Shown here piece by piece: positions 45,028 through 61,600 of a stretch of DNA of 64,000 nucleotides. The stretch comes from Lewinella sp. W8 (GTDB lineage: Bacteria > Bacteroidota > Bacteroidia > Chitinophagales > Saprospiraceae): positions 496,001 through 560,000 of the forward strand of contig NZ_SNAQ03000001.1 in NCBI RefSeq assembly GCF_004375085.3. Direction: 5' to 3'. The first letter of the stretch is position 1, and every line of letters begins with the position of its first letter. A program made the position numbers and the translations under genes. The notes below the pieces were generated by a model. The model had not been told where the DNA came from, made no database searches, and worked only from the letters and a program-made list of their open reading frames with translations.

Positions 45028-46458
45028 TTACCGGTTCTTCAGCCGGTAGAACCAACGGAGGATGCTGGTCACCCGATCCGAGAGGAGGAATTCGGAGGTG
45101 CGGTCCCGGGCGGGCTTTTGGTTAATGCGGCTGCCCACGGGATAGGCGTAAATCTTGTTGGTCAGCGTACTGTACTTTTTGCCGAGGAGTTGGAGCAGTT
45201 GTAACTCCTGGATCATTTCCCCGGCACCGGGGGCGGCCATGGCGCCGCCAAGGATTTTTCCTCCTCCCCAGAAACCTTTGGACAGGCAGAGCATCAGGTG
45301 CCCTTCCCGGTAATCGGCCGCTACGGCCCGGTCGTCGTGGTCAAAGGATTGCTGCACGAGGTCGAAGTCAATACCAGCTTCCCGCAGCTGTCGGGGTGTC
45401 TGACCGAATACCGCAATTTCGGGGTCGGTAAAGGTGACCCAACTGAAGGCCTCCAGGCGATGCTTTTTGCGCAGGGGACTCAGGAAATTATTCCACAGGT
45501 CGGTGTTGTGCTTTTCCGCTCCGTGGCTGAACATTTCCCGGCCGTAGGCATCTCCCACGGTGTATACGTGTGGGTTGGTAGTCCGGTAGTAGTCGTCGGT
45601 GACGATTTTTCCGTCCCGGACTTCAATGCCCGCAGCGGCCAGGCCGATCCCCTCCGTGCGTACTTCCCGGCCGATGGCGGCCAGTAGGTGCGTAAAGGTT
45701 ATGGTTTGTCCATCGTTCAGGGTGGCGGAATGGGGCCCATCAAATTTGGTGATGGTGGTTTCGAAGCGGAGGTCGACGCCTTCCTGACGCAGTCGGTTGG
45801 CGAGGATGTTGCCCATGACGGCCGGGTCCTTTTCCAGCAACTGCTTGGCCCGGACGAGCAGCGTAACCTTACTGCCCAGGCGAACGAAAGCCTGGGCCAT
45901 TTCGCAGCTGATGGGGCCGCCCCCGACGATCAGGAGGTGTTCGGGGAGGGTGTCCAGTTCCCAGAACAGGCTTTCGTTGTCCCATTGCCGGACGTCATCC
46001 GCTCCGGGAACCTCGAGGTGGCGGGGGACGGAGCCGGTGGCCAGGACAATCCGCCGCGCCGTCAATTTCCGGTCGTTGACGGTCACCTCCCGTGCCGCTG
46101 AAAATTTGGCCTCGCCGATGATGGACTCCAGACCATACTCTTTTTCGAGGTACTCGGGTGTTTCGTGGGCCCGGATGATGTCCTGCTGCTCGTGGACGTA
46201 GCGCATGACGGCCGGGAAGTCGGCCTGGCCCGAGGTTTTCAGTCCGAAGCGTTCGGCTTGCTTTCCGCCGGCGAAGAGGGAGGCTACGTGGAGCAGCGCT
46301 TTGCTCGGGACGCAACCGTAGTTGAGGCAGTCCCCTCCAAAATTTTTGGCGGAGCGATCGATGAGGGCCACCTTCAGCCCGATGGCGGCCCCGAAGCCGG
46401 CGGCCCCGAGGCCGCCCGACCCGGCACCGATCACGATGAGGTCATGGGTATATTTCAT
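45028..46458 (-). CDS. Pyridine nucleotide-disulfide oxidoreductase (MerA/LpdA-like)
   Basis: 476 residues. FAD motif GAGSGG (11-16), redox pair Cys44 and Cys49 in GGDCLNYGCVPSK, NAD motif VGGGPISCEMA and the second FAD motif YTVGDAYG. The dimerisation domain lacks the His-Glu dyad of dihydrolipoamide dehydrogenase: where HPT-x-SE is expected the chain reads YAYPVGSRINQ. That Tyr-for-His change is seen in mercuric-reductase-like and other uncharacterised members, so lipoamide is unlikely to be the substrate. The C-terminus is extended and basic. Substrate unknown. Confidence 0.85.
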   Translation of the reverse strand: MKYTHDLIVIGAGSGGLGAAGFGAAIGLKVALIDRSAKNFGGDCLNYGCVPSKALLHVASLFAGGKQAERFGLKTSGQADFPAVMRYVHEQQDIIRAHETPEYLEKEYGLESIIGEAKFSAAREVTVNDRKLTARRIVLATGSVPRHLEVPGADDVRQWDNESLFWELDTLPEHLLIVGGGPISCEMAQAFVRLGSKVTLLVRAKQLLEKDPAVMGNILANRLRQEGVDLRFETTITKFDGPHSATLNDGQTITFTHLLAAIGREVRTEGIGLAAAGIEVRDGKIVTDDYYRTTNPHVYTVGDAYGREMFSHGAEKHNTDLWNNFLSPLRKKHRLEAFSWVTFTDPEIAVFGQTPRQLREAGIDFDLVQQSFDHDDRAVAADYREGHLMLCLSKGFWGGGKILGGAMAAPGAGEMIQELQLLQLLGKKYSTLTNKIYAYPVGSRINQKPARDRTSEFLLSDRVTSILRWFYRLKNR

Positions 46459-46509
46459 ACCTATGCATAAGGTCTGGAGTGGGGTTTATGTTTGGTGATG
46501 GCGGAATGA

Positions 46510-46763
46510 CCGGCTTGTTGGGAGCGCTTTTCGGGGGAGTGGTGGTTCAGGTCTGGTCTGTAGGCTGGTTGGTTGTCAGGCTGAACGCCCGGCTTGCGGA
46601 GCAAGCCTTTTCCGGTGTGGTGGTGGATTAGGTCTGCTCCGCAGGCCGGTCGGTTGAGAACGAAAAATGACCCTTGATATGAAGCAGTTCTCTCCCGCTA
46701 ACGCCCGGCTTGCGGAGCAAGCCTTTTCCGGTGTGGTGGTGGATTAGGTCTGCTCCGCAGGCC
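46510..46763. repeat. Upstream REP/BIME array of the RAYT locus
   Basis: Two intact inverted REP pairs and one decayed pair. REP type A, GGCTTGCGGAGCAAGCC, at 46591-46607 and 46707-46723; type B, GGTCTGCTCCGCAGGCC, at 46631-46647 and 46747-46763. B is the same hairpin in opposite orientation (its complement reads GGCCTGCGGAGCAGACC, core TGCGGAGCA). Decayed A and B copies are at 46510-46526 and 46550-46568. Each A is preceded by CCC or CC and followed by CTTTTCCGG. Confidence 0.85.
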
Positions 46764-46845
46764 GGTCGTCGATCAGTTATACAGATCTTGTCTGAAAATA
46801 CCGTAGCTTGGAAAGCCTTTTGTTTTTTTTACCCTATTAATTGTT

Positions 46846-47487
46846 ATGGCCTTCACCGAAAAGCAAAACCGGCTTCCACACCGTGATTTGGGGGAAGATT
46901 ATGTTCATCTCGTGTACCGAACCTTTGACTCCTTACCCCAGCGGGTGGCGGAAGAATTTTGGCGAAAACATCAAATTGAGCTGCTAACGATACGGCAATC
47001 CCCTACACTTGCACCCGAGTCAATAATGTGTTTTGAACAAAGAGCCACTGAGCGTGCCCAGAAAAAATTTCATCGCCTATCGGCTAAATTCCGGAAAGGA
47101 AAGGGACTGCTTCACCGTATAGAGTGTAAGCGGGTGGTTATTGATTCTTGGAAGTTTCTCGCCGACAAAGGAGACCTTGAATTGATTGCGGTATGCGTGA
47201 TGAATAATCACGTGCATGTCTTGATTGGGGGCGGAACAAATCTGGTTGATCTACCAGAGCTCATGCACCGACACAAAACGTTCACCGCAGTAAAGTGCAA
47301 TAAACTGCTCGGCCGCAAAGGTAAATTCTGGGCGTACGACTTTTTTGATCGTGATCTGAGGCCAGGAACCTTTCATCAAGTGCTGAGCTATATTTTAAAC
47401 AATCCCGTAGCGGCTCGTTCAGTACAACACTGGACAGAATATCCGGGGGTTTACTTGACGGAGGAATTGGTTGGAAAATATACGTAG
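46846..47487 (+). CDS. REP-associated tyrosine transposase (RAYT, Y1/HUH)
   Basis: 213 residues. The HUH motif is His122-Val-His124 in VCVMNNHVHVLIGGG, and the catalytic Tyr182 sits in HQVLSYILNNP, the Y1 transposase helix. Between them KGKFWAYDFFDRDLR is a family signature. Compared with IS200/IS605 TnpA it is longer at the N-terminus, as RAYTs are. It is bracketed by REP hairpin pairs of one family, the arrangement expected of a domesticated single-strand transposase that moves or copies REPs. The open frame is intact and probably functional. Leader region 46764-46845 is A/T-rich. Confidence 0.9.
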   Translation: MAFTEKQNRLPHRDLGEDYVHLVYRTFDSLPQRVAEEFWRKHQIELLTIRQSPTLAPESIMCFEQRATERAQKKFHRLSAKFRKGKGLLHRIECKRVVIDSWKFLADKGDLELIAVCVMNNHVHVLIGGGTNLVDLPELMHRHKTFTAVKCNKLLGRKGKFWAYDFFDRDLRPGTFHQVLSYILNNPVAARSVQHWTEYPGVYLTEELVGKYT

Positions 47488-47498
47488 GGTTATTGCCC

Positions 47499-47700
47499 GG
47501 CTTGCGGAGCAAGCCTCTTCCGGGGTGGGGAATTGGGATTAGGTCTGCTCCGCAGGCCGGTCGGTTGAGAACGAAAAATGACCCTTGATATGAAGCAGTT
47601 CTCTCCCGCTAAACGCCCGGCTTGCGGAGCAAGCCTTTTCCGGGGGGTGCTGGAGAGAGATTGATTATGCGGGCGGGTTGTTAGCAAGCCTCTTCCGGAG
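47499..47700. repeat. Downstream REP/BIME array of the RAYT locus
   Basis: Type A REP at 47499-47515 and 47619-47635, type B at 47542-47558, and a decayed fragment (AGCAAGCCTCTTCCGGA) at about 47682-47698, reaching mutS. The block 47542-47643 is almost identical to 46631-46731 upstream, differing by one inserted A, including the 50-base spacer GGTTGAGAACGAAAAATGAC and onward. Confidence 0.85.
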
Positions 47701-47706
47701 GCGCTT

Positions 47707-50394
47707 CTACTCCTCCAGCAATTGCTTGAGCTCATTCAGCTTCATCATGCATTCGATGGGCGTCATGTTGTTGATGCTGATTTCTTCGAGGGCCGCCTTG
47801 AGTTTTCCGGCGGTGGGGTCGACGGTTTCGAAGATGGAAAGTTGCATTGCTTCGGTGGACAGCGAGGCGGTGGCGGCGGTTTGGGCCTGGGGAGCATGGC
47901 CGTTCCCGGAAACTTCGGCACCTGCGCTTGCGCCCTGCTGATCACCGTCGGCAGTAATGTGCTGTTGCTCCAATTGGGCGAGGATGTCCGTGGCCCGGGC
48001 AACAATGCTGCGGGGCATTCCGGCCATCTGGGCGACGTGGATACCGAAACTGTGCTGACTTCCGCCGGGCACCAGTTTGCGCAGGAAAATGATGCGGTTG
48101 CCGTGCTCCTTGATGGCTACGGAATAGTTCTTGATGCGTTCCAGTCGGCCGGCCAGCTCGTTGAGCTCGTGGTAGTGGGTGGCGAAAAGCGTTTTGGGCC
48201 GCGTCTGCCCGTTGCTGTGTAGGTATTCGGCAATGGCCCAGGCGATGCTGATGCCGTCGAAAGTACTGGTTCCCCGGCCGATTTCATCGAGCAGGATGAG
48301 GCTGCGGTCGGTGATGTTGTTCATGATCGAGGCCGTCTCGTTCATCTCCACCATGAAGGTGGATTCTCCGCTGGAAATGTTGTCGCTGGCCCCCACGCGG
48401 GTGAAGACGCGATCGATGAGGCCGAGACGGGCCTGCTGGGCGGGCACGAAGCTCCCCATCTGCGCCATGAGGGCGATGAGGGCCGTCTGGCGGAGGAGCG
48501 CCGATTTACCCGACATGTTCGGCCCAGTGATCATGATGATCTGCTGTTCCTCCGGATCGAGGCGAACGTCGTTGGGGATGTACTGCTCCCCGACCGCCAA
48601 CTGTTGTTCGATGACGGGGTGGCGGCCCTGGGTGATGTCGATGTCCTGGCTCTCGTCCAGCTCCGGCATCACGTAACGGTGCTGGTTCGCCACCTTGGCG
48701 AAGGACAGCAGGCAGTCGAGCTGCCCGATCAGGGCGGCGTTGTGCTGGATGGGCGCAATGAACTGCTGCAACCAGACCACCAGTTCCTCGTAAAGCTCTT
48801 CCTCCCGCTGCAGGATTTTGTCTTCCGCGTTGAGGATCTTATTCTCCAGCTCCTTGAGTTCTTCGGTGATGTAGCGTTCGGCGTTGGTGAGCGTCTGCTT
48901 GCGGGTCCACTCTTCAGGAACGTCGTTCTTGTACTTATTGGTGACCTCCAAATAGTACCCGAACACGTTGTTGAAGCCGATCTTCAAACTACTGATGCCG
49001 GTGCGCTCCACCTCCCGCTGCTGAATTGCGGCCAAGCGCCCCTTGCCGTTGCGGGTGATGTCCCGCAGTTCATCCAGCGCTGGATCGAATCCGTCGGCAA
49101 TCACGCCCCCCTTATTGAGGTTGACGGCCGGAGACTCCTGCACCTGGCGGTCGATTTCGGCGCATACCTCGGGCAGGTCATCCAGCTTACCGGCAATGTG
49201 GGCCAGGACTTCGTTTTTCGCGTCGGCGATCAGCGCCTTAATGGGGCCGATGGCGCAAAGGGCATCGCGCAGCGCCCGGATTTCCCGGGGATTGATTTTA
49301 CCGAGGGGAACCTTGCTGATGAGGCGTTCCAGGTCGCCGATCTGCTTCAGGCAGCCGTCCAGATCCTGCAGCAGGACGGGGGAGCCAACGAAGGTATTGA
49401 CCACGGCGTGCCGTGACCGGATGGCCTTGAGGTCAATGAGCGGCAAGACGACCCACTTGCGGAGCAAGCGTCCACCCATGGGCGTGACCGTGTGGTCGAG
49501 CACCCGCACCAACGGTACGCCGTTGTCGTGCGGACTGTGCAGCAGCTCCAGGTTGCGAATCGTGAAGCGGTCCAGCCAGACGTAGCGGTCGTTGGCCAGT
49601 CGGCTGATGCGCGTAATGTGCTGCAGGTTCTTGTTTTCGGTGGTCTCCAGGTAGTGTAAGATGGACCCCGCGGCCAGTTGGGCGAGCTGCATTTCCTCCA
49701 CCCCGAATCCCTTCAGGCTGGTGGCGTTGAACTGCCGAAGGAGCTTTTCCTGGGTGTAGTCTTCAGTGAAGATCCATTCGTCGAGCGGACTGAGGTAAAA
49801 CCGATCTCCGAAACGTTCCAGAAAAGTTTTTTTGCGGTCCTTGCTGAGCAGCACTTCCTTGGGGGTGAAGCTTTGGAGAAGTTTATCCACGTAATCGCCC
49901 GAGCCTTCGGCGACGAGAAATTCTCCCGTGCTGATGTCGAGCAGGGACAATCCAAAGACGTCCTTTTTGCCCCCGGACCAGGCCACCGAGGCCAGGAAGT
50001 TGTTGCTCTTGTGGTCCAGCAGTTTATCGTCTACGGCCAGGCCGGGGGTGACGATTTCCGTGACGCCCCGCCGGACAATCTTCTTCTCCTTACTGGGTTT
50101 TTCCAGCTGCTCGCAGATGGCTACCCGGTAGCCGGCCTTGACGAGGCGGGGCAGGTACATGTCCAGACTGTGGTAGGGGAAGCCCGCCAGTTCCACGTCG
50201 CTGCCGCCGTTGTTGCGGCTGGTCAGGATGATCCCCAGTACCTGGGCGGCCTTGACGGCATCCTCGCCGAAGGTCTCGTAAAAGTCGCCCACCCGGAACA
50301 GCAGCAAACTTTCCGGGTGCTTGGCCTTCACCTGGTTGTATTGCTGCATCAGCGGAGTGACCTTCTTGGAGCGCTTCTTGGATGTCTTTGCCAT
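47707..50394 (-). CDS. mutS: DNA mismatch repair protein MutS
   Basis: 895 residues. The mismatch-recognition motif Phe-Tyr-Glu is in VGDFYETFGEDA (about 37-48), and the ATPase has Walker A GPNMSGKS (624-631), the SSGESTFMVEMNET signature, Walker B SLILLDEIGRGTSTFDG and the ATHYHEL switch. A helix-turn-helix and a beta-clamp-binding tail region close the protein (QHITADGDQ linker). Full-length MutS1, which recognises mismatches with MutL. Its 3' end abuts the RAYT/REP locus. Confidence 0.97.
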   Translation of the reverse strand: MAKTSKKRSKKVTPLMQQYNQVKAKHPESLLLFRVGDFYETFGEDAVKAAQVLGIILTSRNNGGSDVELAGFPYHSLDMYLPRLVKAGYRVAICEQLEKPSKEKKIVRRGVTEIVTPGLAVDDKLLDHKSNNFLASVAWSGGKKDVFGLSLLDISTGEFLVAEGSGDYVDKLLQSFTPKEVLLSKDRKKTFLERFGDRFYLSPLDEWIFTEDYTQEKLLRQFNATSLKGFGVEEMQLAQLAAGSILHYLETTENKNLQHITRISRLANDRYVWLDRFTIRNLELLHSPHDNGVPLVRVLDHTVTPMGGRLLRKWVVLPLIDLKAIRSRHAVVNTFVGSPVLLQDLDGCLKQIGDLERLISKVPLGKINPREIRALRDALCAIGPIKALIADAKNEVLAHIAGKLDDLPEVCAEIDRQVQESPAVNLNKGGVIADGFDPALDELRDITRNGKGRLAAIQQREVERTGISSLKIGFNNVFGYYLEVTNKYKNDVPEEWTRKQTLTNAERYITEELKELENKILNAEDKILQREEELYEELVVWLQQFIAPIQHNAALIGQLDCLLSFAKVANQHRYVMPELDESQDIDITQGRHPVIEQQLAVGEQYIPNDVRLDPEEQQIIMITGPNMSGKSALLRQTALIALMAQMGSFVPAQQARLGLIDRVFTRVGASDNISSGESTFMVEMNETASIMNNITDRSLILLDEIGRGTSTFDGISIAWAIAEYLHSNGQTRPKTLFATHYHELNELAGRLERIKNYSVAIKEHGNRIIFLRKLVPGGSQHSFGIHVAQMAGMPRSIVARATDILAQLEQQHITADGDQQGASAGAEVSGNGHAPQAQTAATASLSTEAMQLSIFETVDPTAGKLKAALEEISINNMTPIECMMKLNELKQLLEE

Positions 50395-60903: not shown

Positions 60904-61600
60904 GGTATGGTTTTATGGGTTACGGAGACCGGTAGACCGGTCCGGAAAATGGTTCCGTAAGAAAAGAAATTTGCGCGAGACTTCCCGTACCCGCCGCGAA
61001 CGCCCGGAGTTTCCCGGGGATTACTGACCGGCGGCTGACGAAAAGGGGGTGGTGGTGAGTATTTTCCCTCTCCCCAAAGCCCTCTCCGGCCGCTCGTGCC
61101 TCGCAGGAGAGGGGCTTGACGGTTGGCTTTTTCTGAAAAGGTAGGAGAGACCCATCAACATTTCTTTTGGAGAGATAATAAATGACTTAGGCATCTGGTG
61201 TTTCCTTTCCCCGAAAGGAAACCCAATCGGTTCTGGGGTACCCAGATACTTCCCAGAACAGCTTGAGTAAACTGATCGTGTACAATCTCAACCACTATGC
61301 TGGTGTGGTCGCCTTTCGGGGAAAGACGACTCCAGATAGCCAAACGCAGTAGACCCTAAAATCTTCGATTTTTCAGATACTTTGCGAAGGCCAGAACAGC
61401 TCCGGCGTGACCTCGAAGTGTGTAGCGCTGAACCGGAGGTTCGTGTCGTTACTCCTTTGAGAGTCACCTTGGAGGCAACACCTATACTTGATTTAGTTGC
61501 TGGTTTCTTGGTGATTAGTGACTCGTAAGTGACGAGGGGAGGAGAAACAGGATTTAGGCCCGAGGATGTGGACTTTAGGAGCTTGTCCGAGGGCGTGACA

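Follow-up and report, generated by a model that had tools for sequence, protein, structure and literature searches.

An intact RAYT gene enclosed by its own REP hairpins in head-to-head pairs, and a private dispersed REP family, in Lewinella sp. W8

The window analysed here is a stretch of 64,000 nucleotides of Lewinella sp. W8 (bases 496001-560000 of contig 11; the genome has 6.18 Mb in 91 contigs). It carries a RAYT/TnpAREP gene, an open reading frame (ORF) with no internal stop, between mutS and a gene for a pyridine nucleotide-disulphide oxidoreductase, called lpd here (Table 1). On both sides, the RAYT gene is flanked by REP hairpins that have copies elsewhere in the genome. The host had been predicted to be of Saprospiria type, which agrees with the named members of the genus, those of Neolewinella.

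Table 1. Genes, catalytic codons and repeats at the RAYT locus (window positions)
Feature	Position	Strand	Remark
Pyridine nucleotide-disulphide oxidoreductase gene (lpd)	45028..46458	-	flanks RAYT
Decayed A-B pair	46508..46575		by eye, unscored
REP type A copy 1	46591..46607	-	foot CCGGAAAA on minus strand; 30-nt element 46586-46615
77-nt B-plus-spacer unit	46625..46701	+	identical to 47536-47612
REP type B copy 1	46631..46647	+	foot GTGGATTA on plus strand
REP type A copy 2	46707..46723	-	
REP type B copy 2	46747..46763	+	
RAYT/TnpAREP gene	46846..47487	+	213 aa
His122 codon	47209-47211	+	within RAYT gene
His124 codon	47215-47217	+	within RAYT gene
Tyr182 codon	47389-47391	+	within RAYT gene
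REP type A copy 3	47499..47515	-	begins 12th base past RAYT stop codon
77-nt unit, second copy	47536..47612	+	other side of gene; identical to 46625-46701
REP type B copy 3	47542..47558	+	
REP type A copy 4	47619..47635	-	
Decayed REP remains	47640..47705		47683-47701 scored, rest by eye
mutS	47707..50394	-	flanks RAYT

Two hairpin types were distinguished, type A (GGCTTGCGGAGCAAGCC) with four exact copies and type B (GGTCTGCTCCGCAGGCC) with three. Two type A copies lie upstream and two downstream of the gene, and two type B copies upstream and one downstream, exactly as the original prediction had counted them. When up to three mismatches were allowed, type A gave 12 matches against 0.27 expected from shuffled windows and type B 8 against 0.20, counts that take in A/B cross-matches and reverse matches of the palindromes. 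The copies at the locus form inverted doublets. Additionally, tandem units were found, with 69 nt identical between 46584 and 46700. Decayed pairs had been predicted further out; downstream, this was borne out by a type A remnant resembling the 3' half (89% over 19 nt, 47683-47701), and the upstream pair was recognised by eye. An assignment to a known RNA family was rejected, since no part of the locus scored up to an Rfam gathering threshold.

The window protein matched the Pfam Y1_Tnp profile with 31.5 bits (cut-off 23) and the NCBIfam profile REP_Tyr_transpos (NF047646) with an E value of 7e-17 and 61.7 bits, under the curated cut-off of 80. Six other RAYT-like proteins from the genome included one that reached 80.6 with NF047646, and 6 of 14 control genomes contained a match, only 1 of them above the cut-off; we take this cut-off as strict rather than as a defining trait. 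An intact Y1/HUH transposase had been claimed from the sequence, and His122, His124 and Tyr182 indeed fall into invariant columns of a 44-sequence alignment that includes the window protein. Searched against solved structures, the profile of these 44 sequences found E. coli TnpAREP (4ER8) as the top match (E 6.1e-8). The AlphaFold2 model of the protein (mean pLDDT 92.1) likewise had 4ER8 as its top Foldseek match (E 9.8e-6, TM-score over the query 0.46), with IS200/IS605 transposases closely after it. With a HUH motif and a single catalytic tyrosine in a Y1 fold, the protein is a RAYT/TnpAREP, and its closest solved relative by profile and fold is TnpAREP, not IS200/IS605 TnpA. Save for the NCBIfam score below the curated cut-off, the profile search thus returned the RAYT relatives whose lack had been named as an argument against the assignment. 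The gene is not a multi-copy insertion sequence, its next-best copy in the same genome being 42% identical. Across 59 related genomes, the best full-length relative was also 42% identical, partial matches reached 47%, and the window protein sits on a long branch of the tree.

The neighbourhood of the gene was compared among 20 sister genomes. In nine of them lpd adjoins mutS; the gap between the aligned ends is 55-117 bp long and has no RAYT gene, compared with 1248 bp here. In ten others lpd was not found beside mutS, two of these (L078 and L086) being uninformative contig ends within 468 and 15 bp, and one genome gave no mutS match. Because lpd and mutS are direct neighbours in nine sister genomes, the RAYT locus probably arose between them. 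Insertion in this lineage is the simplest reading of the gap, the alternative being loss elsewhere. In sister genome G014, a RAYT-like ORF (L081, 3198-3833, minus strand) lies about 0.8 kb from mutS; it scored 41.3 bits with NF047646, below the cut-off, and gave no Pfam match at 1e-5. The idea of a RAYT hotspot beside mutS was dropped, with two cases only.

The hairpins are not confined to the locus, the outcome that the original prediction had regarded as adverse; they belong to a family spread through the genome. Its 13-nt core CTTGCGGAGCAAG occurred 55 times in this genome (reversed control 0) and 7 times across all 20 sister genomes (reversed control 8). Two of the 55 matches (L014 and L024) are without the flanking consensus and look like chance. 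On the foot strand the REP consensus reads CCGGAAAAGGCTTGCTCCGCAAGCCGGTCGT. A type A covariance model gave at least 146 matches in the genome at E<=1 and at least 123 at E<=0.001, both lower bounds because only the best 150 of 5415 first-look candidates were scored. The 22-base form of the REP was found in no record of an 84,980-species collection, from which the genome's own and very near records were possibly left out. The REP family is private to this species.

As single-stranded DNA, the element folds into a 7-bp hairpin; an equally good fold was reached by 1 and 2 of 200 shuffles for the two type A strands, and by 12 for type B. A smaller covariance search of 59 fetched sources gave 124 matches at E<=0.001, with 95.2% of the stem cells paired. 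Two-sided changes were seen in 22 stem cells against 5.2 in shuffles, confined to two of the seven pairs, in an alignment that had been fitted to the covariance model. Two of five stem measures did not exceed the shuffles, namely pairs with two-sided change (2 vs 1.8) and further pair types (7 vs 7.7).

The canonical 5' GT[AG]G foot is absent from type A and most dispersed copies, which read CCGGAAAA, CCGGAATA or close to it; GTGG is present in two of the three type B copies, 4 nt off the stem. A different REP core had been predicted, and both core and foot are unlike the GT[AG]G type. The four type A copies of the locus differ from the dispersed consensus at 1, 1, 1 and 3 of 30 bases, and in A1, 44 of 45 dispersed rows have GACC where the three locus rows have GCCC. 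Because of these differences, the dispersed copies do not derive directly from those at the locus.

An inverted partner with exact core within 150 nt was found for 4 of 53 exact copies, all four at the locus, and for none of the 49 copies outside it. With one mismatch allowed, 6 of 53 copies and thus 2 of 49 outside the locus had such a partner, compared with 30 of 505 random positions. Direct partners with exact core accompany 14 of the 53. Among the matches listed, neighbours within 250 bp pointed in the same direction 52 times and were inverted twice, in a count that uses the type A model and partly misses type B copies, among them those of the locus pairs. The matches listed form at least about 81 REP sites (1-kb clusters), 44 of them with one model match, and the direct arrays have tandem periods of about 67, 102, 120 and 179 bp. 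Since none of the 49 has an exact-core inverted partner, the dispersed copies are single or direct arrays and not BIMEs; the BIME reading of the original prediction holds for the inverted A-B pairs of the locus only.

Many dispersed REPs (for example, L164, L169 and L171) sit in a degenerate purine-rich (GGCTNA)n tract, a feature that came to notice only once the loci had been inspected. The pattern AGGCTNAGGCTNAGG matched 86 times in this genome, where its reversed control gave 0 matches; all 20 sister genomes combined gave 12 matches, and 14 for the reversed control. The tract is thus private to this genome. Within 100 bp of a listed REP model match lay 45 of the 86 (0.4 expected), and the tract was locked to the strand carrying the REP foot (45:0). 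Counted as sites, 30 of 52 lay within 500 bp of a listed REP match, compared with 1.2 expected. The 36 exact matches more than 500 bp from a scored REP may belong to REPs beyond the best 150 of the 5415 candidates, or may be tracts without REPs. A shorter pattern, GGCTNAGG, occurred 139 times near REPs and 32 times farther away at 57 loci (two without a usable REP), with a strand ratio relative to the REP of 137:2; this count and that of AGGCTNAGGCTNAGG overlap. The tract was missing at ten sites each of two other REP families (46 and 34 matches) and was not found at the RAYT locus. On the REP-foot strand, it offers C|T every six bases. According to the available part of PMC8266576, E. coli TnpAREP cleaves at C|T on the 5' or the 3' side of its REP and requires a C at the joining end, and the Marinomonas enzyme also cuts CA. 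By analogy, the tract would fit a role as cutting and joining site.

The 52:2 orientation bias among the matches listed and the tandem periods are also what would be seen if the direct arrays and the hexamer tract had grown by replication slippage or unequal exchange, with no part for the RAYT in the present copy number. Such growth is compatible with a first arrival by way of the RAYT, but slippage cannot place copies at the at least about 81 separate sites, and it gives no reason for a genome-private tract or for its absence at 20 sites of two other families. We regard this account as possible but doubtful.

Outside mechanically called ORFs of at least 100 aa lay 51 of 62 scanned copies (7 of the 62 at the locus), and 11 lay inside. 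Because the REP plus tract is open in several reading frames, most of the 11 are presumed to lie in chance ORFs, and a location inside real genes was set aside. The genome-wide hairpin search proposed in the original prediction thus upheld a spread family, mostly outside called ORFs, but not the expected inverted pairs. Such a location would also suit repeats that are retained because they serve the host (in transcription termination, mRNA stability or protein binding), with the RAYT domesticated for another task, and host roles have been proposed for REPs elsewhere in the accessible parts of PMC3733652 and PMC2817692. The family is, however, absent from all 20 sister genomes, so any host function is not shared in the genus, and we consider this explanation unlikely.

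RAYT relatives are common in the genus. The RAYT profile matches twelve loci in this genome, in 13 stretches of which two belong to a single gene; no match exceeds the cut-off. Relatives are present in 19 of the 20 sister genomes. A hairpin common to both flanks was present, by our own criterion and with no chance estimate, at 41 of the 48 genus RAYT ORFs that have both motifs. Most genes differ in their stems, although close relatives and some other genes have a common one, such as GGACC-TCC-GGTCC in L045, L048, L049 and L057. Compared with at least 123 copies of the window REP, the other families of this genome number 46 (C4, 3 at their own RAYT), 34 (C1, at L118 on contig 1, 8 at their own RAYT and 26 elsewhere), 14 exact copies (C88, 6 at their own RAYT) and 8 (C22, at L116 on contig 22, all at their own RAYT), rough numbers, since the patterns were of unequal length and allowed unequal numbers of mismatches. 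No match to the C88 or C22 family was found in the 20 sister genomes. A REP of the contig 1 family (GGTTTCCTTTCGGGGAAAGGAAAC) also lies inside the window (61200-61223, minus strand). A GGA/TCC triloop was considered as a conserved recognition feature and rejected: it recurs in many REPs of the genus, but GGA is also the commonest background triloop (34 of 396), and TGT, TGC, TAT and TTT loops also occur.

The eleven further RAYT-like loci could act on the window REPs, and together with the differences between the locus A copies and the dispersed consensus they raise the question of whether another RAYT, living or lost, spread the dispersed REPs, the window locus merely carrying related hairpins. 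At the flanks of these eleven loci, however, eight have other repeated hairpins, three (L036, L038 and L041) have none by the criterion, and the window hairpin is listed at none; moreover, the four other REP families counted in the genome have different hairpins. Spread by another RAYT is therefore judged improbable.

In E. coli, the region that binds the GTAG foot comprises W94, Q95, E100, H101 and R104 (available parts of PMC6006769 and PMC8266576; residues numbered along the 4ER8 alignment). In the window protein, the corresponding stretch is W-A-Y-D-F-F-D-R. A clade of seven genus proteins keeps W-Q (Gln95 in 7 of 7) and has GTAG-type feet where these are readable, and all 39 rows of the clade holding the window protein have lost it. 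That this loss alone caused the changed foot was rejected because of exceptions outside the genus, which combine Gln95 with GG feet (L238, L265 and L268) or Glu95 with GT feet (L231 and L258). Among 71 proteins with a foot call from several phyla ("?" rows dropped, the foot rule set after seeing the data, and the foot GGTCGA readable either way), Tyr at E. coli position 98 was present in 23 of 26 proteins with a GG foot and in 3 of 45 with a GT foot (Fisher 2e-12, kinship disregarded). Against this trend, the window protein combines Phe at this position with a GG foot. In a tree-aware pair test with seven foot changes, 1.8 pairs went the same way, 0.1 the other way and 3.1 showed no difference (median p 0.5). 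Tyr at position 98 is, on these alignments, a possible lead to the choice between GG and GT feet.

The published feet are GT[AG]G in the accessible parts of PMC2817692, PMC3733652 and PMC6006769, and E. coli TnpAREP needs this foot according to the available part of PMC8266576. CGTC-tagged repeats without an adjoining RAYT (PMC3733652, in part) and atypical structures without GT[AG]G in subclass 2.6 and class 3 (PMC6006769, in part) have also been described. Apparent GGAG/GGAA feet instead of GT[AG]G were seen at RAYTs of Acidobacteria, Gammaproteobacteria, Akkermansia and Bacteroidetes MAGs (L265, L268, L274, L282 with one copy only, L267 and L288). A literature search, mostly without subscription literature, found no paper on REPs in Saprospir- hosts or on REPs with a hexanucleotide tract and transposase, listed none on REPs in Neolewinella and gave nothing related to GGAG-foot REPs.

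Taken together, we read the locus as a REPtron, in which an intact RAYT, a member of the single-tyrosine HUH nucleases for single-stranded DNA, is enclosed by its own REPs in head-to-head pairs; it most likely entered the lpd-mutS gap in this lineage, and its REP family multiplied in this species (probability about 0.8). We infer that the protein would recognise the foot and hairpin on one strand, would use Tyr182 to cut at C|T steps close by and would join the ends. Such cutting and joining may have moved or multiplied the REPs, and the direct arrays may have grown by such joining or by later slippage. More tentatively, and with rather low confidence, the RAYT might spread, rather than an inverted REP doublet, a single REP joined to a (GGCTNA)n tract that runs one way on the REP's own strand; C|T cutting and joining would then produce direct arrays of REP and tract and seed single REPs, and position 98 (Tyr vs Ser/Thr) may help decide between GG and GT feet.

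In this field, REP DNA has been cut by the enzyme in vitro, and the moving unit and its mode of landing are unsettled. Here, one genome offers a dozen RAYT-like loci and five REP families in the same background, ranging from locus-confined to at least about 81 sites, and the strand-locked CT tract predicts directly, and in a testable way, the cutting sites of the enzyme. With its natural variety of feet and hairpins, a single genus could help to work out DNA recognition by RAYTs, and a private REP family in an unusual one-way arrangement is a good setting for studying repeat spread.

Like E. coli TnpAREP (4ER8), the window protein has a HUH motif and one tyrosine, keeps the Trp and Arg of the guide region (W162 and R172 here, W94 and R104 there) and is encoded between REP pairs. 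It differs in length (213 residues, 165 in E. coli) and in having Ala in the place of Gln95, and unlike the E. coli y/z REPs, the REP here has a TCC loop on a perfect stem of 7 bp, and neither a bulge nor a GTAG foot. The group 3/subclass 2.5 REPtrons of Stenotrophomonas and Marinomonas, as described in the available part of PMC8266576, share short perfect palindromes with 3-4 nt loops and often several REPtrons per genome, but they have a GTAG foot, whereas CCGGAAAA or GTGGATTA is found here, and the dispersed copies here are without inverted doublets. The original description of RAYT/REP systems as best described in Proteobacteria is fair, yet Bacteroidetes TnpAREP subclasses have been published (2.4 and 2.6, accessible part of PMC6006769). 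These share the phylum and flanking hairpins with genome copies elsewhere, and subclass 2.6 also does without GT[AG]G; compared by the listed motifs, they have WQ and YIxNNP or YIH[QN]NP, whereas the window protein has W-A and YILNNP. Finally, as in the REPINs of PMC8049555 (available part), head-to-head pairs adjoin the RAYT; inverted doublets are mobile and singlets are remnants in REPINs, whereas here 44 of 81 sites among the matches listed are single and the arrays are direct.
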